A stretch of DNA of 64,000 bases from Bradyrhizobium sp. CCBAU 53338. GTDB taxonomy: Bacteria; Pseudomonadota; Alphaproteobacteria; Rhizobiales; Xanthobacteraceae. The stretch covers positions 682,001 to 746,000 of the forward strand of contig NZ_CP030049.1 of NCBI RefSeq assembly GCF_015291665.1. The letters run 5' to 3'. The position numbers and the translations under genes were made by a program. Shown piece by piece: positions 14,571 to 29,101 of this stretch (position 1 is the stretch's first letter; each line of letters begins with the position of its first letter). The notes beneath the pieces were generated by a model. It was given only the letters and a program-made list of their open reading frames with translations, did not search any database and had not been told where the DNA came from.

Positions 14571-14862
14571 TTTGCGGAGCGCATTGTAAGAGCCGATTAA
14601 CATCAAGGCGCTCGGAAATACCGTCGGCAGCTAGGCGCCGACCGGAATGGCGTCAGCCGTGCCAAGTTGACGCCGCGTTTGGGTTTGAAGTGCAACCGCG
14701 ACAGCGAATTTCGAGATTATTCTCGTCATGCATGGTTGCAGGCGCTTTAGTAATTGGCGTCGTGGCGAGGCGTGATTGATAATTTGGCCCCATAAGCGAT
14801 CGGTCAATCCTGTCCGCTGTGGCCAGGCCGACAGCAATTGCTCATCGGTGGTAGGATCCGGA

Positions 14863-15515
14863 ATGTCCAGTGACGTGTCGAGCTTTCCCGCACAATTGAT
14901 GCAGGGCTACGCCGCTTTCATGTTGGACCGCTTTCCTCAGGAACGACAAAGGTTCGATTCATTGGCCGCGCGCGGGGCAGTCACCGGAAGCCCTGGTGAT
15001 CGGATGTTGCGACAGCCGCGTTTCACCCGAATTGATATTCAATGCGAGACCCGAGGAAATCTTCGTCATCAGAAACGTTGCAGCGCGTACCGCCCTTCGG
15101 TGTCGAGGGAGAATTCCACGCCGCCGGGGCTGCTCTGGTTGTGCTCGGTCACGCCCGGTGTGGGGCGTCCCCGCTTATGCCAAAGGCAAGGTATCGGCCT
15201 CACCAGAAAGCTTCACGACTCCATGGATGCAACGTCTGGTCCCGGTGGCGCACAGAGCTGGCCGTGTTGCGGCGGCCTGGACGACGATCACACCGACTTG
15301 GAGCTGGCTGCGATCGATCAGTCCTTGCTCAATCTAATGAGTTTTCCGTGGTGTGCGATCGCGTAGGTCGCAAGCAGCTCACGTTGCATGGATCGTATTT
15401 CGAGATTGCGAACGGTGTTCTGCACATACGAGATCGAGAGACCGGCAAATCTGATCCAGCGTGTGCGGACCGTTTTACGGACGCGATTACCTGTGCATCC
15501 GGACGATATCGATGA
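14863..15515 (+). pseudogene. Frameshifted beta-carbonic anhydrase
   Basis: A beta-class carbonic anhydrase can be followed across all three plus frames. From ATG 14863: 'AQLMQGYAAFMLDRFPQERQRFDSLAARG'; then from about 14992 another frame: 'VIGCCDSRVSPELIFNARPEEIFVIRNVA'; then 'ALVVLGHARCGA' in the third; back to 'AYAKGKVSASPESF...WMQRLVPVAHRAG'; then 'IDQSLLNLMSFP'; and finally 'RKQLTLHGSYFEIANGVLHIRD'. The zinc ligand motifs (CCDSR and H-x-x-C in GHARCG) survive as sequence but in different frames. At least four frameshifts make it non-functional. It lies upstream of a biotin-carboxylase operon, which would consume bicarbonate. Confidence 0.88.
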
Positions 15516-15611
15516 GGGGGCCGCTCCTGCGCCGATAGGTTTGAAATCGAAATCGGCTCGCGAATGGCCTGCTGCACATCCGGCAGATGACAACGACGAG
15601 AGGAACTACCA

Positions 15612-16847
15612 ATGACAGTCTTCGACGCCGCGTCTGCGTCCAACCGCTCCGAGTTTGCCGCACGCGTGAATCGAATTCAACCGTCGCAGAGTGGTGCTGC
15701 GGCCCAGCGAGTGCGGGAATTGCAGGCTCAGGGGCGAACAATTCTCAATCTGACCCAGGGTGAACCCGACTTCGACACACCCGATAATGTCGTGCAGGCT
15801 GCGCTCGCCGCCATGAAGAGGGGCGAGACGAAGTATACCAACACGGATGGTACGGCAGTCCTGAAAGAGACAATTGCGAAGAAATTCGCGCGTGAGAACG
15901 GCCTCTCCTACAAGGTCAGTCAAATTTCGGTCGCCAACGGCGCCAAACAAATCTTATTCAATGCGTTGGCGGCGACGTTGGATCACGGAGACGAGGTCAT
16001 CATCCCGGCTCCGTACTGGGTGTCGTACCCGGAAATGGTGTCGTTCTTCGGTGGGGTACCCAAAATCGTCGCTTGCCCGGCGGCGAGGAACTTCAAGCTC
16101 GATCCGATCGATTTGGAACGTGCGATCACGTCGAGGACTCGGTGGCTCCTCTTGAACTCGCCTTCTAATCCCACGGGGGCCGTATACACGCGCAGGGAGC
16201 TGGAGCCAATCATCGATGTATTGCGAAGAAATCCGCACGTCTGGCTCCTTAGCGACGACATATACGAGCATCTTGTCTATGACGGGCTCGAATATTGTAC
16301 GCCGGCGGCGATCGATCAGTCCGTCGCGGAGCGAACCCTGGTCGTCAATGGCGTCTCGAAGGCCTATTGTATGACGGGTTGGCGCATCGGTTATGCCGCG
16401 GGTCCGGCGAAGTTGATATCCCAAATGGCGAAATTGCAATCTCAGGCCACGGCCAATCCATCGTCCATCAGCCAAGCTGCGGCCGTCGAGGCTTTGAACG
16501 GGCCGCAAGAGGGGCTTCGAGAGCGAGCAGAGAAATATCAACGACGGCGCAATCTGGTTCTGGAAGGACTCGCGTCCGTGCCCGGGTTGGCTTGCGACAA
16601 GCCGTCCGGCGCCTTTTACGTCTTCCCCTCCTGCCGCGACCTGATCGGAAAGCGGACCCCGGACGGAACCGTCCTTGCCGATGACAAGGACTTTTGCAAG
16701 TATCTCCTCGATGCCGAAGGGGTGGCGGTGGTGCACGGAGCGGCCTATGGCTTATCGCCCCACTTCAGAATCTCATATGCTACTGCGGACGAAACCTTAA
16801 AGGAGGCCTGTGTCCGCATAGCCCGGGCATGCAGTCGACTGAGTTGA
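15612..16847 (+). CDS. PLP-dependent class I/II aminotransferase (aspartate aminotransferase-like)
   Basis: This 411-residue fold-type I aminotransferase starts at 15612 after AGAGGAAC. Seen: 'TILNLTQGEPDFDTPDNVVQAA', 'YTNTDGTAVLKETIAKKF', 'SVANGAKQILFNALAA', 'NSPSNPTGAVY' (Asn and Pro of the active site), 'LLSDDIYEHLVYDG' and the PLP lysine in 'VNGVSKAYCMTGWRIGYAAGP'. C-terminal 'FRISYATADETLKEACVRI' supplies the carboxylate-binding Arg. It resembles the bacterial Asp/aromatic subgroup. It stands between the dead carbonic anhydrase and the biotin-dependent operon, but a 317-base gap separates it from the latter, so it need not be co-transcribed. Confidence 0.9.
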   Translation: MTVFDAASASNRSEFAARVNRIQPSQSGAAAQRVRELQAQGRTILNLTQGEPDFDTPDNVVQAALAAMKRGETKYTNTDGTAVLKETIAKKFARENGLSYKVSQISVANGAKQILFNALAATLDHGDEVIIPAPYWVSYPEMVSFFGGVPKIVACPAARNFKLDPIDLERAITSRTRWLLLNSPSNPTGAVYTRRELEPIIDVLRRNPHVWLLSDDIYEHLVYDGLEYCTPAAIDQSVAERTLVVNGVSKAYCMTGWRIGYAAGPAKLISQMAKLQSQATANPSSISQAAAVEALNGPQEGLRERAEKYQRRRNLVLEGLASVPGLACDKPSGAFYVFPSCRDLIGKRTPDGTVLADDKDFCKYLLDAEGVAVVHGAAYGLSPHFRISYATADETLKEACVRIARACSRLS

Positions 16848-17164
16848 TGCAGCTCGCTGCCCTGACAATACGTGTGGAGCGATGTCGGACCACATTCGAG
16901 CAGCTCATATCGTTTTGCGGTTCATCGGGTCCGTGATGCGAAATGGAGATCTGCGACATGATGTCATCATTGCTCCAGGGCCGCATGAGCTCTCTAACCA
17001 GCGTTCTGTATCGCGGCCAAACGGGCGAACCGCCAAGATCAACTCATCGAGCTGGCCGCTGAGCTGGTCTTGCAAAACCGCCTCCACGAAAGTCGAGGTA
17101 TTTGGTAGCTTGAAATAATACTACCAAATGGCTAGCCTCAAAGCGATCGACAAGGGAGGAAGTA
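16848..17164. other. 317-base intergenic region with promoter and possible coding remnant
   Basis: No intact gene. One plus frame around 17018-17105 reads like a protein end ('DQLIELAAELVLQNRLHESRG') but has no start and may be a relic. The 3' end holds a strong inverted repeat (17100-17129) and the GGGAGG ribosome site of the next gene. The promoter of the 17165-26858 operon must lie here. Confidence 0.5.
17100..17129. promoter_or_regulatory. 9-bp perfect inverted repeat upstream of the biotin-dependent operon
   Basis: ATTTGGTAG, 12 A/T-rich bases, then CTACCAAAT, ending 35 bases before the ATG at 17165. The arms are perfect, and the centre (CTTGAAATAATA) is A/T-rich in a G/C-rich genome. 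This fits an operator for a dimeric regulator over the promoter or start region of the operon; the half-site GGTAG/CTACC resembles GntR/FCD sites only loosely. No regulator gene is adjacent, so the partner is unknown. Confidence 0.5.
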
Positions 17165-17926
17165 ATGGCCGCCATTCGACGGATAGGTATCCTCGCGCCG
17201 CCGATAAATGTGGCTATGGAAACCGAGCTACCGTCCTACGTTCCTCCCAATGTCAAGCTCAATCACAACAGGCTCACCAAACCCGGCACCGCTATAGCGA
17301 AGGAAGCGCAGCTCGCTATGGCCAACTCGTTGGATCGAGCGGCCTCGGATCTCGCACAGGCGAATCCGGAGGTGATAGTTTACGGATGTACGAGTGCCAG
17401 CTTCCTAGAGGGGCTAGGCAACGAAGCCAAGCTAGCCGACCGCATCACGATGTTGACCGGAATTCCCGCTGTCACCACTTCAACAGCCGTCATCGAAGCC
17501 TTGAAGGCCGTTCGGGCGACCAGAGTATTCATGCTCACTCCCTATCCGGATCTAATCAACAAGGAAGAGGCCCTCTTTCTGCAGCACTATGGCTTCGGCG
17601 TGGAGGCCGTCGATTCCTTCTTTTGCGCAGATGGACGACAGATCCTGACCATCTCGTCGGCGGACGTTGCCTCCAAGGTGCTCTCAAGCCGTGAGGTCAT
17701 TTCAAGGTGTGACGCCGTGTTTGTCAGTTGCACCAATTTGCTGGTGATGGATCAAATCGACCGATTGGAAAGGGAATTGAACCTGCCGGTTGTCACCTCG
17801 AACCAAGCCTCTCTTTGGGCGGCACTCCGAAGGATGAAGATCGATGTCACCTCAACGGGGGTAGGCCGCCTGTTCAAGGAGCGGCGGCCACAAGAAGCAC
17901 CGGTATTCGAGTTGAGCAATGCCTAA
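17165..17926 (+). CDS. Maleate cis-trans isomerase / arylmalonate decarboxylase-like (Asp/Glu racemase superfamily)
   Basis: This 253-residue protein has two cysteine loops at the expected positions: 'VIVYGCTSASFLEG' (about residue 75) and 'AVFVSCTNLLVMD' (about residue 190). These give the two-Cys active site of maleate isomerase, Asp/Glu racemase and hydantoin racemase-type enzymes. N-terminal 'RRIGILAPPINVAMETEL' and 'TGIPAVTTSTAVIEAL' fit the maleate isomerase branch best. It has a strong ribosome site (GGGAGG). It opens the operon ahead of the ABC importer, so it probably handles the imported or released compound. Isomerisation of a maleate-like diacid or racemisation of an amide are the main options. 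Confidence 0.82.
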   Translation: MAAIRRIGILAPPINVAMETELPSYVPPNVKLNHNRLTKPGTAIAKEAQLAMANSLDRAASDLAQANPEVIVYGCTSASFLEGLGNEAKLADRITMLTGIPAVTTSTAVIEALKAVRATRVFMLTPYPDLINKEEALFLQHYGFGVEAVDSFFCADGRQILTISSADVASKVLSSREVISRCDAVFVSCTNLLVMDQIDRLERELNLPVVTSNQASLWAALRRMKIDVTSTGVGRLFKERRPQEAPVFELSNA

Positions 17927-19076
17927 CCGCGCCGTCAGGATCGTCGAACCGCCAGCATGCTCGATCGATTCCGACGCGGATAGAGTGGCCGCGCTCGAAA
18001 TCATCGAAGTGTCGAAACGATTTGGAGATAACTCGATCGTCGACAACTTGTCATTGACGGTCAAGCAGGGCGAATTTTTGACATTTTTGGGACCGTCAGG
18101 CTGCGGTAAATCAACGACCTTGCGCATGATCGCGGGGTTCGAGCAGCCGGACGCGGGATCAATCAAGATCGGCGGCCATGTGATGACGGGCGTTGCGCCT
18201 TATCGGCGTCCCGTCGGCTTGGTCTTCCAAGGTTTGGCGCTATTTCCGCACCTTACTGTCGAGGAGAACATCGCCTTCGGGCTGGCGGTGAAAAAGGTCA
18301 AACGCGACGAAATCGTAGCAAGAGTACGCGAGGCGCTCGCGTTGGTGGATCTGAGCGAGCTCGGACGACGTCGGATACAACAGATATCGGGCGGTCAACG
18401 TCAACGCGTGGCCCTGGCGCGCGCGCTGGTCACTGGCCCGTCCGTTCTCCTGCTGGATGAGCCCTTCGGTGCACTGGACTTCAAGCTGCGCCGCCAGATG
18501 CAGATCGAATTGAAGCGTATCCAGCACCAAGTCGGCACAACATTCGTATTCGTGACTCATGATCAGGAAGAGGCGATGATCCTGTCGGATCGGATAGCCG
18601 TTTTCAATCATGGAAAGCTCGAACAATTGGGCAGCGCGCGTGAGGTCTACGAGAACCCGAAGAATGCATTCGTCGGAGGCTTCCTCGGGGATATCAACAT
18701 CTTCGTCGGCCACGTGCAGTCTCTCGAGAAAAACGGTGCGAGTCTGCACCTGAGCGAGGTCTCGGCCGACGCTCTGATAGTGGCAACTCCAGAGATGAAA
18801 ATCGGCGCAGAAGTCGCGATATCGATTCGTCCCGAGAACGTACGTGTGGGACGCGAAGTGTGGGGTAACAGTTGTCTTATGGTCGGCCAGATCGTGGCGA
18901 ACATCTATATGGGCGCGACCGTCCGTCAAAGCGTTGTGGTCGACGACAAGGTCGTGGTGGTGGATACGACGGCCCGGCATGTGCAGCAGCAAGGCCTGCT
19001 TCCGGGAACTCAGGTCAAGTTGGCATGGGATTTGGAGGACGCCATCGTTTTCGCGAACAAGGAGGTGCGGAAGTGA
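17919..19076 (+). CDS. Spermidine/putrescine-type ABC transporter ATP-binding protein (PotA-like)
   Basis: This 385-residue ATPase has Walker A 'GPSGCGKST', Q-loop 'LVFQGLALFPHLTVEENI', signature 'ISGGQRQRVALARAL', Walker B 'LLLDEPFGALD', H-loop 'VFVTHDQEEAM', and a C-terminal TOBE-type region (about residues 285-385) with 'ISIRPENVRVG'. It overlaps the upstream gene by 8 bases, showing that the isomerase-like enzyme and the importer are made together. The following binding-protein gene starts within its stop codon (GTGA). Confidence 0.92.
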   Translation: MPNRAVRIVEPPACSIDSDADRVAALEIIEVSKRFGDNSIVDNLSLTVKQGEFLTFLGPSGCGKSTTLRMIAGFEQPDAGSIKIGGHVMTGVAPYRRPVGLVFQGLALFPHLTVEENIAFGLAVKKVKRDEIVARVREALALVDLSELGRRRIQQISGGQRQRVALARALVTGPSVLLLDEPFGALDFKLRRQMQIELKRIQHQVGTTFVFVTHDQEEAMILSDRIAVFNHGKLEQLGSAREVYENPKNAFVGGFLGDINIFVGHVQSLEKNGASLHLSEVSADALIVATPEMKIGAEVAISIRPENVRVGREVWGNSCLMVGQIVANIYMGATVRQSVVVDDKVVVVDTTARHVQQQGLLPGTQVKLAWDLEDAIVFANKEVRK

Positions 19077-20119
19077 AGCACGCTGCCGGTCTATTGATGG
19101 CCCTGAGCTTGTTCAGCCTTTCGACGACGGTTGCGTGCGCCGCCGACGGAGAAGTTGTCATGGGCACCTGGGGAGGAGGCAACAGCGAGATGTGGCGAGA
19201 GAAAGTCGGCAAGCCGTTCTCCGCGTCGTCCGGTATCGTGGTCAAGATCCGCGACTGGTCGGATCCGGAGCCGACGTTAAGAGCCCAAGCGAGAAAACCT
19301 CAGTTCAACGTCGCACTGGGCACCTGCTACAACGCCGCAAATCTCCAAAAGGATGGATTGCTGGAAAGCTTTAAGAAGGAAGACTTCCCCGAACTGGCTA
19401 ATTTCGAGAAGTCGTCCTATCTGATAGACCAGAACGGCGAAGTTTACGCTTTCGGCATCTACTTTCAGTATTACGGGGCCGCATTCAACAGCGATCAGGC
19501 AAAAGCGTCAGACTTCGAGTCCTGGCGGGCATTGGCCGACCCGAAATTCAAGGATAAAGTCGCTATCGCCCGGCCGATCTATGCTGCTCCCAATGATTTG
19601 GTTCTCTTTGCGAAAGTCGGAGGGGGCGACGAAAACAACATTCAGCCCGGCATTCCTCTGCTTACGTCGATCGCGCGTAATGCTCTGACTGTCACGAACT
19701 CCACTGCTCAGATGAATGCCCTGCTGTCGCGCGGAGAGGTCACGGCGGGAGCCTACTATTCGAGCCGCGTCTGGACCATGCGGGCTTCCGGTGTAAAGAA
19801 CGTCGATATCACAATACCCTCCGAAGGAGGATTGCTGCTGTCATATTTCTTGATCGTGCCGAAAGGCGCGAAGAATCTGGACGCCGTGAAAGCCTGGATA
19901 AACTATGCTTTAAGGCCAGCACCAGAATTGGCCATGCTTGATGCGTCTGGCTTCCTACCGCTCAATCAAACTGCCGCGCTTAGCCAGGAACAGCTCAAGG
20001 AGGTTGGTTCGCCGCAATCGTTGCGTTCGAAACTTTACCAGCCAGACTGTTCGGTGCTTGCCGCGAACCAGGAGAAGCGGGTCAATTTGGTCGAACAAAT
20101 CTACTCTCAGGTCAAGTAA
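19073..20119 (+). CDS. Polyamine-type ABC transporter extracellular substrate-binding protein (PotD-like)
   Basis: This 348-residue periplasmic protein starts at GTG 19073, overlapping the ATPase stop by 4 bases; ribosome site GGAGG lies about 8 bases before. Signal peptide 'AAGLLMALSLFSLSTTVACA' ends near 'CAADG'. Seen: 'VVMGTWGGGNSEMWREKVGKPF', the SBP family 1/8 opening, and 'YGAAFNSDQ' and 'IPSEGGLLLSYFLIVPKGAKN'. Such proteins bind polyamines, iminodiacids, opines or similar. The acidic residues that hold polyamines cannot be assigned with confidence, so the ligand is open. Confidence 0.88.
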   Translation: MKHAAGLLMALSLFSLSTTVACAADGEVVMGTWGGGNSEMWREKVGKPFSASSGIVVKIRDWSDPEPTLRAQARKPQFNVALGTCYNAANLQKDGLLESFKKEDFPELANFEKSSYLIDQNGEVYAFGIYFQYYGAAFNSDQAKASDFESWRALADPKFKDKVAIARPIYAAPNDLVLFAKVGGGDENNIQPGIPLLTSIARNALTVTNSTAQMNALLSRGEVTAGAYYSSRVWTMRASGVKNVDITIPSEGGLLLSYFLIVPKGAKNLDAVKAWINYALRPAPELAMLDASGFLPLNQTAALSQEQLKEVGSPQSLRSKLYQPDCSVLAANQEKRVNLVEQIYSQVK

Positions 20120-20145
20120 GCAATAAATTGGAAAGCGGCGGGTCA

Positions 20146-21042
20146 ATGACGGATGTCGGAACTGAGAGGACGACCCGGCGGCACAGCGGCAGCGGAATGT
20201 TGTTCAAGGCGCGGCCGGTAAAAGTCGACTCCCAATTTCTTCTTCTCGTTCCAACTAGCGTACCGTTGATGCTTCTGGCGATCGGTGTCATCTCACTCGT
20301 GGTCGGCTCGTTCACGTCGAACAACGAATTGAGCTTCGCGCAATACCAGGCAGTCTTGGCGCGTAAAGATTACATTGAGACTCTTTATCGAACGATTTGG
20401 TTGGCCGGTCTCACGACCTCGATTTCGCTCCTGATAAGCTATCCCACTGCCTACTGGATCGCGCGATATCCGGGAAGGCGCGACATCTTTCTCATCATTC
20501 TGATGATGCCCTGGTTGGTAAGCGTCGTCGTGCGAACGTACGGCTGGATAGTGATCCTGGGCAAGAAAGGGGTCATTAGCCAGGCGTTGATGTCATCAGG
20601 CCTGATCGCGGGTCCATTAGAAATCCTGTTCAGTCCGACCGCCATCGTGATCGGGCTGGTTCATGTATTCTCACCCTTCATGATCCTTGCGATAGTGACA
20701 GTTCTGATCCGGCTGGACAAATCACTGGAGGAGGCGGCAGCCAGTCTCGGCGCGGGACCGTTTGAAACGTTCCGCAGGGTACTGTTGCCGTTGAGCTTTC
20801 CTGGGATCGTGACGGGCAGCATCATCGTGTTTCTGATGTCAATGGGATCGGTGGTCACTCCTCTGTTGCTCGGCAGCATGCGTGACAAGATGCTTGGTGC
20901 GCAAATTTATCAAGATGTCTTTCAACTCTTCAATTTTCCGAAGGCCGCGGCGCTAGCGATGATTCTTTGCGTCGCTGCCCTGGCGGTCGTGCTGCCTCTG
21001 CAGCTACTCGAGGCTCGTGCGAAGAAAAGTGCGGCCTCTTAG
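20146..21042 (+). CDS. Polyamine-type ABC transporter permease (PotB-like)
   Basis: This 298-residue permease starts at ATG 20146 behind GGCGGG; an in-frame TTG 20128 is less likely. Seen: six hydrophobic segments, 'YPTAYWIARYPGRRDIFLIILMMPWLVSVVVRTYGWIVILG' (a PotB landmark: 'RTYAW'), and the EAA loop 'EEAAASLGAGPFETFRRVLLPLSFPGI'. It precedes the PotC-like permease by 9 bases. Confidence 0.9.
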   Translation: MTDVGTERTTRRHSGSGMLFKARPVKVDSQFLLLVPTSVPLMLLAIGVISLVVGSFTSNNELSFAQYQAVLARKDYIETLYRTIWLAGLTTSISLLISYPTAYWIARYPGRRDIFLIILMMPWLVSVVVRTYGWIVILGKKGVISQALMSSGLIAGPLEILFSPTAIVIGLVHVFSPFMILAIVTVLIRLDKSLEEAAASLGAGPFETFRRVLLPLSFPGIVTGSIIVFLMSMGSVVTPLLLGSMRDKMLGAQIYQDVFQLFNFPKAAALAMILCVAALAVVLPLQLLEARAKKSAAS

Positions 21043-21051
21043 GGAGGTAGG

Positions 21052-21852
21052 ATGAAAGTCGCTTGCCGCATAGTCGCCGTCCTAGTGCTCGCCTTTTTGC
21101 TCGCACCGATTGTGGTCGTGGTGCTGTCCTCATTCTTCGAGTCGGGATTCATCGAAGTTCCGCTCAGCCAGCCTTCACTGAAGTGGTACAGTCAATTCTT
21201 CAGTAGCGACGAGTGGATTTTAACGGCGGCCGACAGCGTCGTCATTGCTTTTGTTGTCGCGGTGGCGAGCACTGCCCTAGCGCTGACAACCGCATTGGTG
21301 ACCGCGCGCCGCCATTTTTGGGGCCGCGCATCATTCGAGTTCATGATTTTGGTGCCGCTGGTATTGCCGCACGCCGCAATGGGTGTCGTGATGCTGACCG
21401 TGATCGGATCGCTCGGCTGGAATGGAACGTATAGCGGCATTGTGCTGGCCCATACAATCCTAGCGTTACCCTTCGCTTATCGACCGATCCTGAACAACAT
21501 GCGGAGCCTTGAGAAGGATGTCGAGGAGGCGGCGATGAATCTGGGCGCGACGCCCGTCGTGATGTTCTTCAAGGTTATTCTTCCACTGATGCGGCCGGGC
21601 ATTGTCACGGCACTCATCTTCAGTTTTATCATTTCGTTCGACGAGTCGACCGTGACGCTCTTCCTAATCGGACCCGACGCCACAACTCTGCCAGTCAAGA
21701 TTTTTGCCGCGATACAGGAGGACGCAAGTCCGATTATATCGGCAATTTCGACGATGTTGATCGGAGCAACCGTCTTTGTACTGATCGCTGTGCAGAGGTT
21801 GGTTGGCTTGGAGGCGTTTGCTGAGGCCGAGGGAGGGCCAGGCCGGCGATAG
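21052..21852 (+). CDS. Polyamine-type ABC transporter permease (PotC-like)
   Basis: This 266-residue permease is preceded by GGGAGG. Seen: 'LLAPIVVVVLSSF', 'SLKWYSQFF' (the PotC 'W+Y..+' stretch), 'LVPLVLPHAAMGVVML', the EAA loop 'EEAAMNLGATPVVMFFKVILPLMRPGI' and 'ISFDESTVTLFL'. It completes the importer with the genes at 17919, 19073 and 20146. A 257-base gap follows before the biotin carrier. Confidence 0.9.
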   Translation: MKVACRIVAVLVLAFLLAPIVVVVLSSFFESGFIEVPLSQPSLKWYSQFFSSDEWILTAADSVVIAFVVAVASTALALTTALVTARRHFWGRASFEFMILVPLVLPHAAMGVVMLTVIGSLGWNGTYSGIVLAHTILALPFAYRPILNNMRSLEKDVEEAAMNLGATPVVMFFKVILPLMRPGIVTALIFSFIISFDESTVTLFLIGPDATTLPVKIFAAIQEDASPIISAISTMLIGATVFVLIAVQRLVGLEAFAEAEGGPGRR

Positions 21853-22109
21853 CAACGGCTGCTGTGTAGAAGGCGTCCGGTCTCTTCCGACAGGAGGTGC
21901 TTGACGGCGGAAAAAAGAAGCTGCCGTCAGCCGGGGCTATATGCATCATATGCATGAAAGTAGGTACTTTTGTTATTGGCGTTGTTTTGGCGAACTGTTT
22001 TTAGTGTTGCCCAGCATATGGCTGGCACGCAGCTCCATCGAGGATCGATGGCTGAATGGCTTCGACGTTTGCGACGCAAGAAGATGAGTCTTGGAGACGA
22101 AAAGGAGCC
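21853..22109. other. Intergenic region with ATATGCAT direct repeat
   Basis: No gene. ATATGCAT occurs twice with one base between (21939-21946 and 21948-21955), so the unit is also a palindrome of ATGCAT blocks. A hairpin (GACGGC 21903-21908 with GCCGTC 21923-21928) lies before it. This could be an internal promoter or attenuator separating the importer from the enzyme genes. The ribosome site AAAGGAGC serves the next gene. Confidence 0.4.
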
Positions 22110-22586
22110 ATGAAAAGCGAAGACTTCAAGATGATCTCAAAGCTCATTGGCTTGATGCATGGATCAGGGGTCGAGGAGCTGGAAGCATCCGACGGAGACT
22201 TGCGCGTAAAGATCACGATGTTTGCGGCCGCACAGGGTAGGCAGGAAATGCATGGGGCGGCGCCTTCCGATCCGCCAGTTGATGCGACCGTGTCGAACGA
22301 AGCCGTCGACGAAACGACGTCGTTCGTCTGCGCTTCAATGCAGGGCATTTTCCATCGCGCGCCCGCGCCGGGTGCCGAACCTTTCGTAGTAGTTGGAAGC
22401 CGGATCTCCACAGGTCAGCAGGTCGGCATCATCGAAGCGATGAAGCTCTTCACTCCACTGCTCGCTCCGACAGCCGGTGTAATCGAGCAAATATTGGTGG
22501 AAAACGGAGTGGAAGTGCAGGCCGAACGGCCATTGTTCAAGGTGAAGTGCAATAGCAATACCAGTAGCGATGGCGAAGCGACATGA
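22110..22586 (+). CDS. Biotin carboxyl carrier protein (AccB-like)
   Basis: This 158-residue protein has ATG 22110 directly after AAAGGAGC. The N-terminal part ('KMISKLIGLMHGSGVEELEASDGDLRVKI') is the AccB helix/strand that docks on biotin carboxylase. A linker rich in A/P/D/E follows, then the lipoyl/biotinyl domain (about residues 72-148) with 'GTQVGIIEAMKLFTPLLAP'-type sequence: E-A-M-K is intact with the biotin-accepting Lys at residue 112, and the second beta-hairpin 'AGVIEQILVENGVEV' is standard. It carries the carboxyl group between the carboxylase at 25494 and, I infer, the PxpB/PxpC pair. It overlaps the next gene by 4 bases. Confidence 0.9.
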   Translation: MKSEDFKMISKLIGLMHGSGVEELEASDGDLRVKITMFAAAQGRQEMHGAAPSDPPVDATVSNEAVDETTSFVCASMQGIFHRAPAPGAEPFVVVGSRISTGQQVGIIEAMKLFTPLLAPTAGVIEQILVENGVEVQAERPLFKVKCNSNTSSDGEAT

Positions 22587-23287
22587 AGCCTTCCAGGCCG
22601 ATAGAGTTTGCAAACCCGCAGGTGAGCTTGTGCGGAAGTGCGGCGCTCTTGTTCGATGCGGAGGGGCCGATGTGTCTACCCACACAGGAGCGTATCTGGA
22701 CTCTTAGCAAGCAGGTCGGTCAATGGGACGTGGTTGTCGATACTCAAGTCGGTATGAATAATCTTCTCGTCCTGTTCGACTCTTCGAAGGCCGATCCGGA
22801 AGCACTTGCATCGAGACTTCTGGAGAGCTGGAGGAAAGTTGAACCGGGCGGTCCACAAGGGAAGCTTCTTGAGGTTGGTGTCGTTTATGGAGGCGATCGC
22901 GGCATGGACCTTGGTGAACTGGCTGCTCATCACGGTATCGATCCGGAGACCGTCGTAAAGCTGCATTCCACTCCGGAATATGTCGTGTTCGCGCCCTCCA
23001 CGACGCCGGGATTCGGCTATCTCTTCGGTTTAGACCCACGTCTCTTCACACCTCGAAGAAAGGTGCCCGTGGTGCGTCCGTTTGGGGGAAATGTGACGAT
23101 CGGGGGCGGGCAATCAAATCTTGGAAATCCTCGCGGCGCCGGTGGGCCACCGACGTTTCCGACCGGCTGGTACGTCATCGGGCACGTACCGGAGGCGCCG
23201 GTGCCGTTTGATCTAAGTCGCAATCCGCCAAATCTTCTCGATGTCGGTGATCGAATTCGCTTCCGCGTGGAGCGCATAGAGAGATGA
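22583..23287 (+). CDS. pxpB: 5-oxoprolinase subunit B / allophanate hydrolase subunit 1 family (PxpB/KipI, AHS1)
   Basis: This 234-residue KipI/AHS1 protein contains 'LFDAEGPMCLPTQERIWTL', 'VVDTQVGMNNLLVLFD', 'VYGGDRGMDLGELAAHHGIDPETVVKLHSTPEYVVFA', 'PGFGYLFGLDPRLFTPRRKVP' and C-terminal 'LLDVGDRIRFRVERI'. The core is clear, but the usual 'GSV.I.G.QTGIYP..SPGGW.+IG' stretch is altered to 'GNVTIGGGQSNLGNPRGAGG...GWYVIGHVPE', a longer loop. In urea carboxylase the AHS1/AHS2 pair forms the carboxyltransferase that passes CO2 from biotin to the amide. With carrier and carboxylase genes in the same run, that role is at least as likely as plain 5-oxoprolinase. The gene symbol denotes family, not proven activity. 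Confidence 0.85.
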   Translation: MKPSRPIEFANPQVSLCGSAALLFDAEGPMCLPTQERIWTLSKQVGQWDVVVDTQVGMNNLLVLFDSSKADPEALASRLLESWRKVEPGGPQGKLLEVGVVYGGDRGMDLGELAAHHGIDPETVVKLHSTPEYVVFAPSTTPGFGYLFGLDPRLFTPRRKVPVVRPFGGNVTIGGGQSNLGNPRGAGGPPTFPTGWYVIGHVPEAPVPFDLSRNPPNLLDVGDRIRFRVERIER

Positions 23288-24288
23288 TTGAGGTTGTTCA
23301 GACTCCGCCGCTCAACTCCGTGCAGGATGACGGCCGTGTCGGCTTTCGAGGATTTGGGATTGGACGATCCGGGGCGATGGATCACGTGGCCTTGGCGGCG
23401 GCCAATGCGCTTTTGGGAAACGAGGAGAACGCGGCCGCCATCGAACTGCAATTGTATCCGTTCGCGGTGAAGTTTCATTCTGACACTCTTTTTGTGCTTA
23501 CAGGCGCGACAGCTCGTGCAAAGCTCGATGGCGTGGCGGTACTTCCTTGGTGGGTGACGCCGGCTCGCGGCGGCCAAAAGCTTGTGGTGTCCGAGCCGGT
23601 GGACGGTTTGCGGACGTATTTGGCGATCGCCGGTGGCGTCGAAGTTCCCGTAATACTCGGATCTCGCAGTACGCAGCTGCGCGATGGCTTCGGCGGCTTT
23701 GAAGGGCGCTCGCTTAAGGCCGGAGACCAATTGGAGGTAGGGCACGCCGCTCCGGTCACTCTGCGGGATTTAGGAGGATATGGCGCCAGTCCAGCCTTGT
23801 CTGAGCTGCCGTCGGCGACGTGGGCGGGCAGCAGCCCGGGGGGAGTCATCCTCCGCGTCATTACGGCATCGGAGTACGACCTGTTCGACGAATCCTCCAA
23901 AACCGCCTTTTGGACCACACCTTGGACGATTTCCACGAAAAGCAGCCGGATGGGCTATCATCTTACGGGCGCGACACTGTGCCGGACGCATGACGTGGAA
24001 ATGAGGTCGCACCCGATCGTACCTGGCGTCATTCAGGTGCCGCCTTCCGGTGATCCGGTGATACAACTGGCGGACGGTAACTCTGCGGGCGGTTACCCGA
24101 AGATTGGTGTCGTCATCGAGCCCGATCTTTGGCGGATTGGGCAAGCAAGGCCAGGCCAGTGTCTTCACTTCGTTCGGTGCAGCTTCGCCGAAGCTCGCGA
24201 TGTCGAGAGGGTGACGCGCAGCTACATCGAGGAGATCCGACGGTTGGCAAAGTTTTGTAGGTGTTCCCCGCGAGCGAAGCTCCCATGA
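23284..24288 (+). CDS. pxpC: 5-oxoprolinase subunit C / allophanate hydrolase subunit 2 family (PxpC/KipA, AHS2)
   Basis: The 334-residue KipA/AHS2 protein contains 'MIEVVQTPPLNSVQDDGRVGFRGFGIGRSGAMDHVALAAANALLGNEENAAAIE', the family's opening; 'TGATARAKLDGV', 'YLAIAGGVEVPVILGSRSTQLRDGFGGFEGRSLKAGDQLEVG', 'SSRMGYHLTGATL' and 'GVIQVPPSGDPVIQLADGNSAGGYPKIGVV'. Length is normal. It overlaps both the PxpB gene and the next small gene by 4 bases, so expression is tightly coupled. It is predicted to form a complex with PxpB that binds the amide substrate and bicarbonate- or biotin-borne carboxyl. Confidence 0.87.
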   Translation: MIEVVQTPPLNSVQDDGRVGFRGFGIGRSGAMDHVALAAANALLGNEENAAAIELQLYPFAVKFHSDTLFVLTGATARAKLDGVAVLPWWVTPARGGQKLVVSEPVDGLRTYLAIAGGVEVPVILGSRSTQLRDGFGGFEGRSLKAGDQLEVGHAAPVTLRDLGGYGASPALSELPSATWAGSSPGGVILRVITASEYDLFDESSKTAFWTTPWTISTKSSRMGYHLTGATLCRTHDVEMRSHPIVPGVIQVPPSGDPVIQLADGNSAGGYPKIGVVIEPDLWRIGQARPGQCLHFVRCSFAEARDVERVTRSYIEEIRRLAKFCRCSPRAKLP

Positions 24289-24698
24289 GCATCGAGTCTT
24301 GGGAATTAGCGGAGTTGATCGCCCAAATGAAACGGGCAGGCGTGAAAGAGTTGGAGGCGCAACGCGGAGAGAGTTCGATCCGCCTCTCTCTGGGCCGGCA
24401 CAACCGCAAAATGGTGGGGACGAGAGCGCTAGAGCTGGCTGGCGTCGAGCGGACCGACGCAGCCACGTTCGTTCGGGCTCCTGCTGTGGGTAGGTTCTCG
24501 AATAGACACCCGTTGGGAGAGGCGACGACCGTAGGAGATCACGTTCAAGAAGGTGACTTGCTCGGGGTGATCGCTATCGGACCAATCTTCAGGCCGGTGA
24601 TCGCGCCCGTCGCCGGTCGTGTGATCGAGCAGGTCTGCCGCAGTGAGAGCGACGTCGAATACGGAACGACGCTATACCGCATAATGGCATCGGGCTGA
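24285..24698 (+). CDS. Biotinyl-domain protein lacking the biotin-accepting lysine
   Basis: This 137-residue paralogue of the carrier at 22110 overlaps PxpC by 4 bases. The N terminus 'SWELAELIAQMKRAGVKELEAQRGESSIRLSLG' matches the AccB docking region, and the C-terminal domain aligns without gaps to the real carrier: G-V-I-A-I-G-P-I-F-R-P-V-I-A-P here against G-I-I-E-A-M-K-L-F-T-P-L-L-A-P there. The biotinyl Lys is therefore Pro100 and the whole E-A-M-K is lost, while 'VAGRVIEQVC...DVEYGTTLYRI' keeps the fold. The frame is clean, so I do not read it as decay. A structural or assembly subunit of the carboxylase complex is my inference. Confidence 0.82.
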   Translation: MSIESWELAELIAQMKRAGVKELEAQRGESSIRLSLGRHNRKMVGTRALELAGVERTDAATFVRAPAVGRFSNRHPLGEATTVGDHVQEGDLLGVIAIGPIFRPVIAPVAGRVIEQVCRSESDVEYGTTLYRIMASG

Positions 24699-24726
24699 AA
24701 CGAAGGTCCTGCCGAAAGGAGCACCC

Positions 24727-25494
24727 ATGGAGATTGATCTCAATTCTGATCTTGGCGAAGGCCTTGGCCGTTGGAGGATGGGAGACGACGAGGCGCTGAT
24801 GAAGCTGGTCTCATCAGCGAACGTCGCTTGCGGCTTTCACGCGGGCGATGCGGTCATCATGACGCGCATGGTCGAGGCAGCGAAAGAGAACGGCGTAGCT
24901 CTCGGCGCACATGTCGGGCTGCCGGACATACTCGGTTTCGGGCGTATCCCGATGAAGATCGATCCGCGTGACATGCAGAAGCATGCGCTTTATCAACTGG
25001 GTGCGCTTTCTGCTATCGCGAAGGTCAATGGCTACAAGGTTACCCACGCGGGGACCCATGGCGCCCTGGGCCAGATGGCACAGGAAAACAAGGAATATAT
25101 CGAGAAGATTCTCGAAGTGTTCGCGGCGTTCGACAGGGATCTGATCATCGCGGCTTCGGTCAAGAGTCACGCAGGCACATTCGCGAAGTCGCTCGGATTG
25201 CGGGTGGTAGGCAAGATCTTTGCTGACCGGGCATACGACGACGAGGCTCGCTTGGTTAATCGGCGACATCCGGGCGCACTTATCACCGATCTGACCGAGG
25301 TTGCGAGGAGAATGAGCCAGTTCCTCGATGACGGGACTATCACGTCCGTGTCGGGAAAGCGGATCAAGGTCGACGCAAAATGTGTCCTGGTCCATAGCGA
25401 TACTCCGGGCGCTGTGGAAATCGCGAGAGCCGTAAGGACGGTGGTCGAAGACGGCGGAGGACGTATCGTTCCGCTAACGGAGCTTGCGGCGTAA
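24727..25494 (+). CDS. pxpA: LamB/YcsF family protein (5-oxoprolinase subunit A-like, PxpA)
   Basis: This 255-residue LamB/YcsF TIM-barrel-like protein has a GAAAGGAG ribosome site. Seen: 'IDLNSDLGEGLGRW', 'SSANVACGFHAGDAVIMTRMVEAAKENGVALGAHVGLPDILGFGR', 'YQLGALSAIAKVNGYKVTHAGTHGALGQ', 'ADRAYDDEARLVNRRHPGALI' and 'VLVHSDTPGAVEIAR'. Compared with 5-oxoprolinases, the usual GAHPGYPD is GAHVGLPD and the usual H-V-K-P-H-G-A-L-Y is H-A-G-T-H-G-A-L-G, so a conserved Lys and Pro are missing. In PxpABC this subunit completes ring opening of the activated lactam. The motif differences argue for another substrate. Confidence 0.87.
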   Translation: MEIDLNSDLGEGLGRWRMGDDEALMKLVSSANVACGFHAGDAVIMTRMVEAAKENGVALGAHVGLPDILGFGRIPMKIDPRDMQKHALYQLGALSAIAKVNGYKVTHAGTHGALGQMAQENKEYIEKILEVFAAFDRDLIIAASVKSHAGTFAKSLGLRVVGKIFADRAYDDEARLVNRRHPGALITDLTEVARRMSQFLDDGTITSVSGKRIKVDAKCVLVHSDTPGAVEIARAVRTVVEDGGGRIVPLTELAA

Positions 25495-26858
25495 TGTCGG
25501 TGCGGTCCATATTGATCGCTAATCGAGGCGAGATAGCGCTCCGGATCATTCGCGCGTGTCGGACGCTGGGGCTGCGAACAATCGCTGTCTGCTCCGAGGC
25601 AGATCGAGGGGCGGCTTACCTTGCTCTTGCCGATCGAGCGGTCTGCATCGGCGGCGCGGCGGCAGATACGAGCTATCTGGATATTGGGGCGGTGATGCTC
25701 GCAGCAGCCGCCGTTGGTGCCGACGCAATTCACCCCGGATACGGGTTCTTGTCGGAGAACGGAGACTTCGCGGAAGCGGTCGAAGGCGCTGGGCTCATCT
25801 TCATTGGTCCGACCTCCGATGTTGTCCGGCTAATGGGGGATAAGATCGCCGCGAAGGCGAAAATGCGCGAGCTCGGCGTGCCTTGCGTTGCGGGAAGTCA
25901 TGGCGCGCTTCCCGATGATCCGCAGCTCTGCCAAGCGTGTGCGACCGAGGTTGGGTACCCTCTTATCATTAAGGCGGCGGGCGGCGGCGGCGGTCGCGGC
26001 ATGCGGATCGTACGAGACAGCGCAAGTCTCCACCAAGCGATCGGAGCCACGCGGGAGGAGGCGAGGCGGGCATTTGCCAATCCGACGATCTACCTGGAGA
26101 AATTTTTGGAGCACCCGAGGCACGTCGAGATCCAGGTCATCTGCGATGGGGGAGGCGAGGGAGTATGGCTCGGCGCCCGCGACTGCTCGATGCAGCGCCG
26201 CCACCAGAAATTAATTGAAGAGGCGCCGCCGCCAGGCGTGCCTGAGGCCAATATCGCCGAACTTGGGGAGCGCTGTGTAGCCGCTTGCCGGGCGATCGGC
26301 TATCGCGGCGTAGGCACCTTCGAATTTCTCTACCAGGACGGGATATTCGCTTTCATCGAGATGAATACGCGCATACAGGTCGAACATCCAATAACCGAGG
26401 AAACCAGCGGCATCGATATCGTGCGCGAGCAGATTCGGGTGGCATTGGGCGAGCCGCTCGGACTTCGTCAATCCGAGGTCACCTGCAGAGGCCATGCTAT
26501 TGAGTGCCGGATCAATGCGGAACATCCTTTCGACGGCATTCCTTCTCCTGGTCGTGTTGAGAGCTGGCTGGCTCCGGGCGGACCGGGAATTCGGGTCGAT
26601 ACCCATATCGTGGCAGGTTCGGAAGTCCCTTCACACTACGACTCCTTGATAGCCAAGGTGATCGCTAGGGGCGAGGATCGTTCGGAGTGTATCGAGCGCA
26701 TGCTTTCGGCCTTGGCAGACCTGCGCGCAGAGGGTATCCGGTTGAACACCGAGCTTCACTCGGTGGTATTGAAGGACGCGTCCTTTCGGGACGCGCGCCT
26801 TAGCATCCACTCCTTGGAAGACATCCTTCGACGGCGCGCCTCGTCCGATCGACGGTGA
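25494..26858 (+). CDS. accC: Biotin carboxylase (AccC-like)
   Basis: This 454-residue ATP-grasp biotin carboxylase has its start overlapping the PxpA stop (TAATG). Seen: 'SILIANRGEIALRIIRACRTLGLRTIAV', 'HPGYGFLSENGDFAEA', glycine loop 'KAAGGGGGRGMRIV', 'CSMQRRHQKLIEEAPPPGV', 'FEFLYQDGIFAFIEMNTRIQVEHPITEETSGIDIVREQI' (metal Glu/Asn and bicarbonate Arg) and C-terminal 'SLIAKVIARGEDR'. All catalytic motifs are intact. It carboxylates biotin on the carrier (22110) at the cost of ATP. No acetyl-CoA-type carboxyltransferase (AccA/AccD) is nearby; the AHS1/AHS2 pair is the only candidate acceptor. The gene symbol denotes family, not a fatty-acid role. Confidence 0.93.
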   Translation: MSVRSILIANRGEIALRIIRACRTLGLRTIAVCSEADRGAAYLALADRAVCIGGAAADTSYLDIGAVMLAAAAVGADAIHPGYGFLSENGDFAEAVEGAGLIFIGPTSDVVRLMGDKIAAKAKMRELGVPCVAGSHGALPDDPQLCQACATEVGYPLIIKAAGGGGGRGMRIVRDSASLHQAIGATREEARRAFANPTIYLEKFLEHPRHVEIQVICDGGGEGVWLGARDCSMQRRHQKLIEEAPPPGVPEANIAELGERCVAACRAIGYRGVGTFEFLYQDGIFAFIEMNTRIQVEHPITEETSGIDIVREQIRVALGEPLGLRQSEVTCRGHAIECRINAEHPFDGIPSPGRVESWLAPGGPGIRVDTHIVAGSEVPSHYDSLIAKVIARGEDRSECIERMLSALADLRAEGIRLNTELHSVVLKDASFRDARLSIHSLEDILRRRASSDRR

Positions 26859-26995
26859 GCGTGATAGGCGACGGCCCGTCGAACCTAATGTGCAATCGAG
26901 CACGCATCAAAGGCGGGCAGCCTTGGGCGAATTCGTGCAGTGCGAGATCGCGTCCGATCGAGTCGATGACTTCGGGCTCGGGTCCCAGGAAGATA

Positions 26996-28147
26996 TCAGC
27001 TCTCGCGGAACTCGGTCAGACCGAATTCCTTCAAGACGGCCTCGGTATGTTGTCCGAGGGACGGCACCGGGTCCATACGCGGCTGCCAGGACTCACCGCT
27101 AATTGGTCGCAAAGATGGCATCGGGCCCGCCGGGGTTTCGATATAAGCCCAGCGCTTGCGGCTGCGCAGTTGCGGATGATCCCACACGGCGGACATGTCA
27201 TTCACGCGAGCCGTACCGATCCCGGCGGTCTCGAGGCGCGAGATGGCTTCGTTCGACGGCAGCTTGCGGAACGTGTCACAGATGACGGCATCGATCTCAG
27301 CTCGCTCTTTCATCCGGCCCGCATTGCCCTTAAAGCGTGCTTCGCTGGCCCACTCGGGCCGTTGTAAGACGATCGTCGTGAACGCGGCCCACTCGCGATC
27401 ATTTTGAAGTCCGAAAAGTACCATGCCATCAGCAGTTTCGTAGGGCCCATATGGGAAGATCGTGGCATGGCCAGCTCCCGCCCGAGCCGGAGGTTGTGCT
27501 CCGTCCATCGCATAGTAAAGCGGATATCCCATCCATTCCACCATGGCCTCCAGCATCGAGACTTCGACATGATCGCCCTGTCCGCTTTTGGCTCGACGCA
27601 GCAAGCAGGCCAAAATGCCCTGAAAAGCCATTGTGCCCGCAGCGATGTCAGCAATCGAGATGCCGGCCTTTGCAACGGCGTCCGGCGTGCCGGTCGTTGA
27701 CAAAAAGCCGGCCTCCGCCTGAATCAGTAGATCGTATGCTTTGCGCTTCTCCCACGGCCCATTCGGACCGTATCCAGATATGTTGCAAGTAATCAGCTGC
27801 TTGTATGTGGAGCGCAGCACGCCATCGGCGAGCCCTAGGCGGGCAGCTGCCCCTGGAGCAAGATTTTGCACAAACACGTCTGCGTGCGCGATGAGCCGTT
27901 GCACGGCTTCCAACGCTCCCGGCCGTTTCAGGTCGAAGGTGACGCTCTCTTTCGACCGATTGGTCCAGACGAAATGACTGGCAAGACCACGCGCACGCGT
28001 ATCATAGGCCCGAGCAAAGTCGCCACCATCGGGCCGTTCGATCTTTATGACTCGGGCGCCGAGGTCGGCAAGCTGACGCGTGCAATAGGGAGCCGCGATT
28101 GCCTGCTCGATTGCGATGACCAATACCCCGTCCAGTGGCCGCGTCAC
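26996..28147 (-). CDS. CaiB/BaiF (class III) CoA-transferase
   Basis: This 383-residue protein starts with GTG 28147 behind GGAGG. Seen: 'GVLVIAIEQAIAAPYCTRQLADLGARVIKIERPDGGDFAR', 'FVWTNRSKESVTFDL', 'VQNLAPGAAARLGL', 'ISGYGPNGPW' and catalytic Asp in 'ISIADIAAGTMAF'. It lies 13 bases downstream of a mesaconyl-CoA hydratase-like gene on the same strand. That pair is reminiscent of Mct/Meh of the 3-hydroxypropionate bicycle or of C5-dicarboxylate breakdown. Convergent with the biotin carboxylase gene. Confidence 0.9.
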   Translation of the reverse strand: MTRPLDGVLVIAIEQAIAAPYCTRQLADLGARVIKIERPDGGDFARAYDTRARGLASHFVWTNRSKESVTFDLKRPGALEAVQRLIAHADVFVQNLAPGAAARLGLADGVLRSTYKQLITCNISGYGPNGPWEKRKAYDLLIQAEAGFLSTTGTPDAVAKAGISIADIAAGTMAFQGILACLLRRAKSGQGDHVEVSMLEAMVEWMGYPLYYAMDGAQPPARAGAGHATIFPYGPYETADGMVLFGLQNDREWAAFTTIVLQRPEWASEARFKGNAGRMKERAEIDAVICDTFRKLPSNEAISRLETAGIGTARVNDMSAVWDHPQLRSRKRWAYIETPAGPMPSLRPISGESWQPRMDPVPSLGQHTEAVLKEFGLTEFRES

Positions 28148-28160
28148 GACACCTCCGACC

Positions 28161-29009
28161 TTAGATTGTAGCTTCCGCCTTCATGATAAGCTCGTCCCGA
28201 TCGTTCGTGGCCCACAGCAGGATTTTTCCGGTTTCGTCCGGCGGACTGCCATTCAGATGAAGTTCGCTGCCGTCGAAAAGCGGCGACACCGCGCGGAAGG
28301 AATATGCCTTCACCACCACTGAGGAAGGGAGACTGCGCCTAACGAGATCGATCAGGAGAGTAGCAATGAGCGGACCATGGACGATCAGGCCTGGATAACC
28401 TTCCACCGCAAAGACGTACGTTCGGTCATAGTGAATACGATGGCCGTTGAACGTGAGAGCCGAATAGCGAAACAGCATGACGGTATCCGGCACGATGCTG
28501 CGATGCCATGGTCCTTTCGGTGCAGTTGATCTCGCTCTGTCGGCGGGCGCTGTGACATCTCGATAGACAATGTCGTGATGGTCCGTCAGAAGTAGATGGC
28601 CGTTCTCGTCGTGGACGGCGTGCCCTACCGTGACGAACACCAGAGGGCCGGTCGTACCTTGTTTGGACGTCACGCTTTCGATCGTCGATGTCCGCTTGAC
28701 ATGCATGCCCACGCGCAGCGGGCTCTTAAAGGTGAGCCTGCTGCCCGCCCACATCCGCCGGGGAAGGTCATGGATGGGAGGAAGAAAGCCCCCGCGCTTG
28801 GGATGCCCGTCAGGCCCTAATGTCGATTGCCGTTCGTTAGGTAGAAAATACAACCAGTGGGCCAGCGGAGGCAGCGCAACCCCCGTTGAATAGAGCTGGT
28901 GGTCGGTTTCGAGGGTCGCATCCAGACGCTCAATCGGACTGGCTGTCACCATGTCTTCCTGGGTTACTGTGCGCCCGATCCATTCCTGGTAGTCGTGTCC
29001 GTCAACCAT
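28161..29009 (-). CDS. Mesaconyl-C4-CoA / 3-methylfumaryl-CoA hydratase-like protein (FAS1-like dehydratase, MaoC fold)
   Basis: This 282-residue double-hotdog protein contains 'WIGRTVTQEDMVTASPIERLDATLE', 'LPPLAHWLYFLPNERQSTLGPDGHPKRGGFLPPI', 'PRRMWAGSRLTFKSPLRVGMHVKRTSTIESVTSKQGTTGPLVFVTV' and 'SALTFNGHRIHYDRTYVFAVEGYPGLIVHGPLIATLLIDL'; the last has the catalytic-type D/H region of hotdog hydratases. The 'PPLAHWLYF' and 'NGHRIHYD' runs are typical of mesaconyl-C4-CoA and 3-methylfumaryl-CoA hydratases. It is predicted to add water to an enoyl-CoA made by the adjacent CoA-transferase. It is divergent from a LysR gene. Confidence 0.85.
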   Translation of the reverse strand: MVDGHDYQEWIGRTVTQEDMVTASPIERLDATLETDHQLYSTGVALPPLAHWLYFLPNERQSTLGPDGHPKRGGFLPPIHDLPRRMWAGSRLTFKSPLRVGMHVKRTSTIESVTSKQGTTGPLVFVTVGHAVHDENGHLLLTDHHDIVYRDVTAPADRARSTAPKGPWHRSIVPDTVMLFRYSALTFNGHRIHYDRTYVFAVEGYPGLIVHGPLIATLLIDLVRRSLPSSVVVKAYSFRAVSPLFDGSELHLNGSPPDETGKILLWATNDRDELIMKAEATI

Positions 29010-29101
29010 CTAGACCTCTCGTTCTGGTCGAACCTATTGGATATCGCTGGTGGACCAACAGTCGTATTATCCAGCAACAGCATTCGGAGTTGGAGAAAGG
29101 C
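29010..29101. promoter_or_regulatory. Divergent promoter region, hydratase / LysR
   Basis: These 92 bases separate the hydratase-like gene (minus) and the LysR gene (plus). The stretch CAACAGTCGTATTATCCAGC has an A/T-rich centre (TATTAT, 29066-29071) that could be a -10 for the plus strand. LysR autoregulation with control of the 26996-29009 pair is inferred from the arrangement. Confidence 0.35.

Follow-up and report, generated by a model that had tools for sequence, protein, structure and literature searches.

PxpABC, the prokaryotic 5-oxoprolinase (YbgJKL in E. coli, YcsF-KipI-KipA in B. subtilis), was reportedly discovered by Niehaus in 2017. According to a passage of PMC13274462, the assumption is that 5-oxoproline is phosphorylated by PxpB and PxpC and its ring opened by PxpA. 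Paired genes resembling the two parts of the urea-carboxylase carboxyltransferase have also been noted, none of them studied by 2011 according to an excerpt from Lombard and Moreira (PMC3199775). For urea amidolyase, an extract of PMC5770610 gives Lys1605 of the K. lactis enzyme as the most likely general base, the K1605A variant having about one-tenth of the wild-type kcat. Here we analyse a 64-kb stretch of DNA from Bradyrhizobium sp. CCBAU 53338 (the window; coordinates refer to the whole of it and genes lie on the + strand unless stated), in which the genes for PxpA, a PxpB-like protein (KipI) and a PxpC-like protein (KipA) share an operon with those for a biotin carboxylase (BC), a biotin carrier (BCCP1) and a second, carrier-like protein (BCCP2). 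The association of the biotin parts with PxpABC is real, that of all six parts is strong, and the six gene products (22110-26858) probably form one machine. The new point, and the surprising part of the system, is that the second carrier is predicted to be a pseudo-carrier.

Scanning an 84,980-genome collection with a KipA alignment matched at least 596 stretches and gave at least 506 relatives. The best 80 were kept as related loci, a set skewed towards the window, with several strains per genus and some loci that end at contig ends. All six subunits are present in 52 of these 80, and in 33 of the 52 they lie on one strand within 8 kb; 15 Enterobacterales loci are considered below, and the remaining 13 hold seven kinds of partial set. 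The neighbours found across the 80 loci are PxpA (77), an SDR match (74), an aminotransferase (73), a LysR regulator (71) and an RraA-like protein (35), and clustering of neighbouring open reading frames (ORFs) gave further clusters, some transporter-like (in up to 21 loci) and many others antisense-like. The initial annotation had proposed searching genomes for the six subunits in the order of the window; co-occurrence was borne out by this search and the order was not, since BCCP1-KipI-KipA-BCCP2-PxpA-BC recurs in a single locus (1 of 80, L041). Most frequent are the orders BCCP1-BC-BCCP2-KipI-KipA-PxpA (19 loci) and BCCP1-BC-KipI-KipA-BCCP2-PxpA (15 loci).

The association was also examined in a phylum-wide draw of 200 genomes, 66 of which had CT_A_B, by fetching 59 KipA places, own-genome places and chains of more than 1000 residues being left out. 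A BC lies within ~7 kb at 16 of the 59, compared with an expectation of 1.0-2.4 (5 to 12 BC genes in 4.5 Mb), an excess with P of 2e-15 to 9e-10 in a simple binomial test that treats the places as independent. By the architectures described below, the 16 places comprise two of type I, one related to it (L146), four of type II plus L129 (cut at a contig end) and eight of type III.

Lysine occupies the biotin-attachment column in 65 of 65 aligned BCCP1 rows and in none of 75 BCCP2 rows, each set including the three rows of this genome and the BCCP1 set also including L106, likely an ordinary AccB, and L044, a short carrier of another kind with 80 residues. A protein search with 28 BCCP2 rows returned 86 matches with a step in score after the 43rd. 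None of the top 43 has the lysine (the BCCP2 of the window is among them, and some come from species that also supplied query rows), and 41 of the next 43 do, the other two being a truncated row with a gap and a row with Arg. Several sources label proteins in the top group acetyl-CoA carboxylase carrier. The AlphaFold model of BCCP2 (pLDDT 87.3, pTM 0.57) has the AccB biotinyl domain 1bdo as its top Foldseek match (TM 0.86 by target), and the BCCP2 profile matches residues 19-176 of the 176 of E. coli AccB, i.e. it extends past the biotinyl domain (AccB-biotin carboxylase crystal 4hr7). Judging from model and alignment, BCCP2 is predicted to retain the biotinyl-domain fold but not the attachment site. 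What the initial annotation had called a second carrier-like protein is thus carrier-like in its domain match and modelled fold and not, by its missing lysine, in carrying biotin. A role in assembly or docking may be what remains to it.

Biotin parts accompany KipI and KipA in three architectures. Type I, that of the window, has two carriers of about 120-190 residues. Type II has one carrier of 77-93 residues, a BC, a long KipI, KipA and PxpA, the last adjoining in six of seven stretches (L126, L127, L131, L134, L183 and L188; the seventh, L129, ends at its contig), and P. aeruginosa PA0492-PA0496 presumably has the same make-up. Type III combines a BC-BCCP fusion (8 of 8) and a KipI-KipA fusion (7 of 8, L142 being the exception) with PxpA. 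A KipA tree with 98 rows puts the type I rows, L011 and four rows with BCCP2 and no BC in one clade (99/97), groups type II with urea carboxylase (100/94) and keeps type III separate (100/100) together with L189, whose locus gene calls hold no BC, yet for which a BC search placed one at the contig end. Plain sets lie between the type clades, and support for the deep forks is low (82/50). A moderately supported branch (81/81) unites types I and II and urea carboxylase along with plain rows, and type III lies elsewhere; given this topology, the tree does not show a single origin of the biotin linkage. L146 (4394-10687) branches outside the type I clade and has a BC, a BCCP1, a second carrier without lysine at the column (by eye; a lysine is adjacent) and a KipI with a plain PxpB-like signature.

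We then placed the Lys1605 column in KipI by counting along a bacterial urea carboxylase alignment to PDB 5i8i; type II KipI rows, which fall under the coverage cut of the main alignment, were aligned separately. Lys fills the column in all three urea carboxylases and all seven type II KipI rows. The 152 other KipI rows, that of the window among them, all have Arg (61 type I, 6 with BC and no BCCP2, 16 with BCCP2 and no BC, two of which, L048 and L081, are not from Enterobacterales, 11 type III, 54 plain and 4 others). Type II therefore looks like a true relative of urea carboxylase, and type I sits with PxpB at the base position. The base Lys of type II, its grouping with urea carboxylase and its adjoining PxpA make a carboxyltransferase plus PxpA a natural pair, and of all the sets those of type II perhaps argue most clearly for carboxylation with subsequent hydrolysis by PxpA. 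Around the site, most type I rows inspected have LGSAPGFGYLHG and TGPNGWN, compared with GFxPGFxYL and SPGGWQ in PxpB. The window KipI shares the type I signature only in part (APSTTPGFGYLFG, PTGWYVIG), as does L011, and the Enterobacterales KipI rows inspected retain it. The idea that biotin linkage is tied to one active-site change was rejected: the residue is Lys in type II and Arg in types I and III, and L146 combines a BC with a plain PxpB-like KipI signature.

For the window, we prefer a mechanism of carboxybiotin-driven activation followed by hydrolysis by PxpA. BC would charge the biotin of BCCP1 using bicarbonate and ATP. With the carboxyl group so gained, the KipI-KipA pair, which has the fold of the carboxyltransferase in urea carboxylase, would activate a nitrogen of an amide or lactam, and PxpA would hydrolyse the activated C-N bond, with the carboxyl group leaving as CO2. 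BCCP2, which would not be biotinylatable, would serve in assembly, docking KipI-KipA-PxpA onto the carboxylase. The importer encoded upstream would bring the substrate in, the racemase-like enzyme would adjust it, and the product, an amino acid, would be taken on by the aminotransferase. We count the aminotransferase as probably part of the system because 73 of the 80 related loci have one, and its constancy suggests an amino-acid product and hence a lactam of the 5-oxoproline kind; the substrate is perhaps a lactam of an alpha-amino acid, e.g. a substituted 5-oxoproline. The RraA-like aldolase family beside 35 of the 80 relatives would fit a hydroxylated keto acid downstream. Oxindole-acetic acid, another candidate substrate, was dropped, as its opening yields an aromatic amine unfit for an aminotransferase. 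N-carboxylation by the window system is plausible, and the statement as a whole, of one biotin-linked machine with N-carboxylation, a docking BCCP2 and a lactam-type substrate, is offered tentatively, at slightly less than even confidence.

The setting of the operon bears on its substrate. The genome (8.44 Mb) consists of two contigs, C1 (7,456,045 bases) and C2 (981,946 bases), the window being C2:805756-869755, and has four PxpA matches, four KipA matches and eight BCs, two of them on C2. A plain KipI-KipA-PxpA set on C1 (L009) could serve 5-oxoproline itself, so that 5-oxoproline need not be the substrate of the window operon. On C2, L010 holds BCCP1-BC-KipI-KipA-BCCP2-PxpA with an SDR and a polar-amino-acid-type importer, and L011 holds KipI-KipA-PxpA with an aminotransferase and no carriers, a BCCP1-BCCP2 pair lying ~15 kb off in L012. 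This pair stands beside FAD-oxidase-like and argininosuccinate-lyase-like genes (both models under cut-off). RraA-like proteins are encoded beside the plain set (L009:6654-7352) and the biotin-linked set L010 (L010:2943-3608), and each passes the cut-off of a different uncharacterised subfamily. A full-length nifH-family match makes C2 look like a symbiosis-type replicon. The replicon seems to have moved between species, since 19,901 bases of the window (14396-34296) match L194 at 100% identity, L194 coming from the genome of the Bradyrhizobium zhengyangense loci L089 and L101, compared with only 88-90% identity for the plain PxpABC region on C1 (L009 vs L193).

Several findings weigh against a biotin-driven reaction. 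The base lysine of urea carboxylase is replaced by Arg in every type I KipI row, the same residue as in plain PxpB. No BC lies near 43 of the 59 KipA places (PxpA is in the stretch at 36 of these and not at 7), and only 2 of the 59 are type I. For the genome's third set, no BC was found in the stretches L011 or L012 (C2:771000-806000). Furthermore, the 15 Enterobacterales loci among the 80 have KipI, KipA, BCCP2 and PxpA without BC or BCCP1 in the fetched locus, and the three of these 15 that were included in the KipA tree (L045, L067 and L100) fall inside the type I clade. Ten Enterobacterales genomes, the eight behind the 15 loci and those of L082 and L106, were searched for BCs. G001, G002, G004, G005 and G010 (that of L082) have one BC of 459-462 residues and otherwise only ~1200-residue chains, G008 has only long BC chains and two short pieces, and G003, G006, G007 and G009 each have two short BCs, the second being part of a type II set in G007 and of another type I set in G009. 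Four of the eight genomes behind BC-less loci accordingly have, besides one AccC-sized BC, only ~1200-residue chains. The stand-alone carriers (150-165 residues) found in G001, G004 and G005 are one AccB-sized protein beside AccC and one at the place of BCCP2. The Enterobacterales sets would either borrow AccB-AccC or dispense with the biotin step.

The main rival is a phosphorylating route in which KipI-KipA-PxpA is an ordinary ATP-dependent lactamase acting on a substrate other than 5-oxoproline and the biotin parts are accessory (bicarbonate supply, regulation or structure) and losable. It accommodates both the Arg at the base position, as in plain PxpB, and the Enterobacterales loci without BC or BCCP1, and the branch (99/95) that encloses the type I KipA clade includes the plain Enterobacterales sets L180-L182 as well. 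It is likewise in line with the phosphorylation of 5-oxoproline that is assumed for PxpB/PxpC in the passage of PMC13274462 mentioned above. However, it leaves unexplained the recurrence of BC, BCCP and KipI/KipA together in three architectures, one of them with fusions, and the residues surrounding the site likewise set type I KipI, that of the window among them, apart from PxpB; we regard it as possible and on the unlikely side. A wider version of the carboxybiotin mechanism, which we also place on the unlikely side, is a biotin-dependent amide or lactam hydrolase in which carboxybiotin activates the ring or amide nitrogen, PxpA opens it, and assembly depends on a carrier paralogue that has lost its biotin lysine for good and serves as an adaptor, docking the hydrolase on a dedicated BC or, in Enterobacterales, on housekeeping AccB-AccC. 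The initial annotation had read the biotin parts and PxpABC as one N-carboxylating machine. That they belong together is upheld by the three architectures, one of them with fusions, and by the lack of an AccD/PccB-type match on C2. The proposal in the form given is not upheld, in view of the lysine-less second carrier, the Arg in place of Lys1605 and the 15 Enterobacterales loci, the last two of which weaken simple urea-carboxylase chemistry.

A urea- or guanidine-type carboxylase split into parts, with an unrelated job for PxpA, would have the same parts and a KipA predicted to have the urea-carboxylase fold, but the base Lys is absent, which led us to set it aside, PxpA is present in 77 of the 80 loci, and KipA scores 173.1 bits on the urea carboxylase model (cut-off 1303.85); it is very improbable. 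BC and BCCP1 might instead be a spare half of an acetyl- or acyl-CoA carboxylase that uses a carboxyltransferase encoded elsewhere, since this BC exceeds the cut-off of the general AccC subfamily (634 vs 597). Here the initial annotation had stressed that no AccA/AccD-type carboxyltransferase is present. A search of the whole genome found no AccA/AccD- or PccB-type match on C2, so the statement holds for that contig, while all eight Carboxyl_trans (AccD/PccB-type) matches are on C1. On this distribution the spare carboxylase was set aside; C1 also has a separate BCCP-BC pair of the housekeeping kind, and the biotin genes of the window overlap those for KipI and PxpA, leaving this explanation with very little probability. 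Least probable is that purely genomic reasons keep the genes together and that they have no reaction in common: the gene order does differ between lineages, but the set recurs in distant lineages and architectures, and the binomial test speaks against chance.

The eleven-gene run of the initial annotation, on one strand and mostly overlapping, is present at 17165-26858, and all its members match named families (Table 1). Four of the five junctions between enzyme genes overlap by 1-4 bases (22583/22586, 23284/23287, 24285/24288 and 25494/25494), and the fifth, BCCP2 to PxpA, is a 28-base gap. A likely ribosome-binding site, AAAAGGAGCC, precedes the ATG at 22110, which by sequence is more likely the start of BCCP1 than 22056; the start of BCCP2 is most likely 24285. 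The 257 bases between the end of the importer genes (21852) and BCCP1 mean that importer block and enzyme block may be separate transcripts, and a promoter/terminator pattern scan of the operon region scored near the shuffle mean. A gap of 317 bases separates the end of the aminotransferase gene from the racemase gene that follows it on the same strand.

Table 1 Genes of the operon and the adjoining aminotransferase gene, in window coordinates
Feature	Position	Strand	Evidence
Aminotransferase class I (PRK06107-like)	15612..16847	+	Aminotran_1_2 9.4e-82; PRK06107 575.5 bits, under cut-off 617
Asp/Glu racemase-superfamily enzyme (Amdase / maleate isomerase / EutA-like)	17165..17926	+	Amdase 3.6e-35
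Importer ATPase, PotA-like	17919..19076 (alternative start 17985)	+	TIGR01187 potA 361.2 bits, cut-off 355.6; ABC_tran+TOBE_2
Periplasmic solute-binding protein	19073..20119	+	SBP_bac_8 7.6e-23
Importer permease 1	20128..21042	+	BPD_transp_1 6.5e-13
Importer permease 2	21052..21852	+	BPD_transp_1 6.3e-16
BCCP1, biotin carrier with biotinyl Lys (EAMKLF)	22110..22586	+	Biotin_lipoyl 6.2e-14
KipI / PxpB-like subunit (CT_C_D)	22583..23287	+	CT_C_D 1.1e-40
KipA / PxpC-like subunit	23284..24288	+	CT_A_B
BCCP2, putative pseudo-carrier, AIGPIF where carriers show EAMK	24285..24698	+	Biotin_lipoyl 23 bits, cut-off 22.1
PxpA (LamB/YcsF) hydrolase-type subunit	24727..25494	+	LamB_YcsF 6.5e-87; PRK05406.1-3 312.3 bits, cut-off 226
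Biotin carboxylase (BC)	25494..26858	+	PRK08591 634 bits, cut-off 597; Biotin_carb_N, CPSase_L_D2, Biotin_carb_C

In the racemase-like protein, the motifs YGCTSAS and SCTNL are presumably the two active-site Cys motifs, and the best PDB relative is 2xec, a putative maleate isomerase (9.3e-24). It falls under the equivalog cut-offs for arylmalonate decarboxylase (111.5 vs 225) and EutA (98.1 vs 318), and its predicted membership is at superfamily level only, which is as far as the label maleate isomerase-like can be followed; the gene was found in 0 of the 80 related loci. The importer had been called polyamine-type. This holds for the ATPase, which reaches the PotA cut-off, and not for the solute-binding protein, which scores 39.8 bits for PotD (cut-off 582) and 19.9 for PotF (cut-off 636), and polyamine import, read from the ATPase alone, was rejected on these scores.

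Two neighbouring groups are recorded in their own right. A DUF1989-family protein is encoded at 13686-14570, after an amino-acid-type ABC importer (~10667-13659, judged from ORFs); members of this family are frequently near urea carboxylase, and none was found in the 80 related loci. Genes for a class III CoA-transferase and a FAS1-like dehydratase, with a divergent LysR regulator, follow the operon directly on the - strand (26996-30037) and are possibly a dicarboxylate-CoA route.

If the preferred carboxybiotin mechanism is true, it would add a new reaction class for biotin enzymes, activation for hydrolysis of amides beyond urea and guanidine, and would give a function to a carrier-like family that is named acetyl-CoA carboxylase carrier though unable to hold biotin. 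It would also caution against taking annotations as 5-oxoprolinase or acetyl-CoA carboxylase subunits at face value, since such genes may be neither. The assumed PxpB/PxpC mechanism becomes testable as well, because sets that have biotin partners occur alongside sets that lack them, and Lys alongside Arg at one site. A literature search, with partial coverage and few subscription journals, gave no title or listing describing the cluster, and we do not claim its absence from print.

Compared with the known systems, the window operon resembles PxpABC in having the genes for PxpA and for PxpB-like and PxpC-like proteins together, and differs in adding a biotin carboxylase, a biotin carrier and a pseudo-carrier and in its KipI around the active site. 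KipI falls under the PxpB model TIGR00370 (130.1 bits, cut-off 145.55), and KipA is under the PxpC model NF045499 (314 bits vs 500) but over the broader TIGR00724 (314 vs 230.2). With urea carboxylase the operon shares its parts and, in KipA, the predicted carboxyltransferase fold, but these parts are separate genes here, as opposed to one chain of about 1200 residues, and none reaches the urea carboxylase model TIGR02712 (BC 441.6, KipA 173.1 and BCCP1 27.9 bits; cut-off 1303.85). Relative to urea carboxylase and urea amidolyase, it further has Arg for Lys1605, PxpA as a hydrolase-type partner and the pseudo-carrier. BC is of the AccC type and both carriers are of the AccB type, as in acetyl-CoA carboxylase, but C2 has no AccA/AccD match and the second carrier lacks the lysine. 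The title of PDB entry 9yx5 describes the long chain acyl-CoA carboxylase complex of M. smegmatis to which MSMEG_0435-MSMEG_0436, a KipI/KipA pair, is bound. By title and chain names, it brings such a pair into one entry with the biotin carboxylase subunit AccA3, a shared acyl-CoA carboxylase, whereas the window has a dedicated BC and BCCP. As in the window KipI, the base position of the M. smegmatis pair is Arg (by eye). To our knowledge, no pseudo-carrier belongs to the MSMEG_0435-0436 system. The title and chain names of 9yx5 suggest that a shared biotin enzyme can accommodate a KipI/KipA pair.

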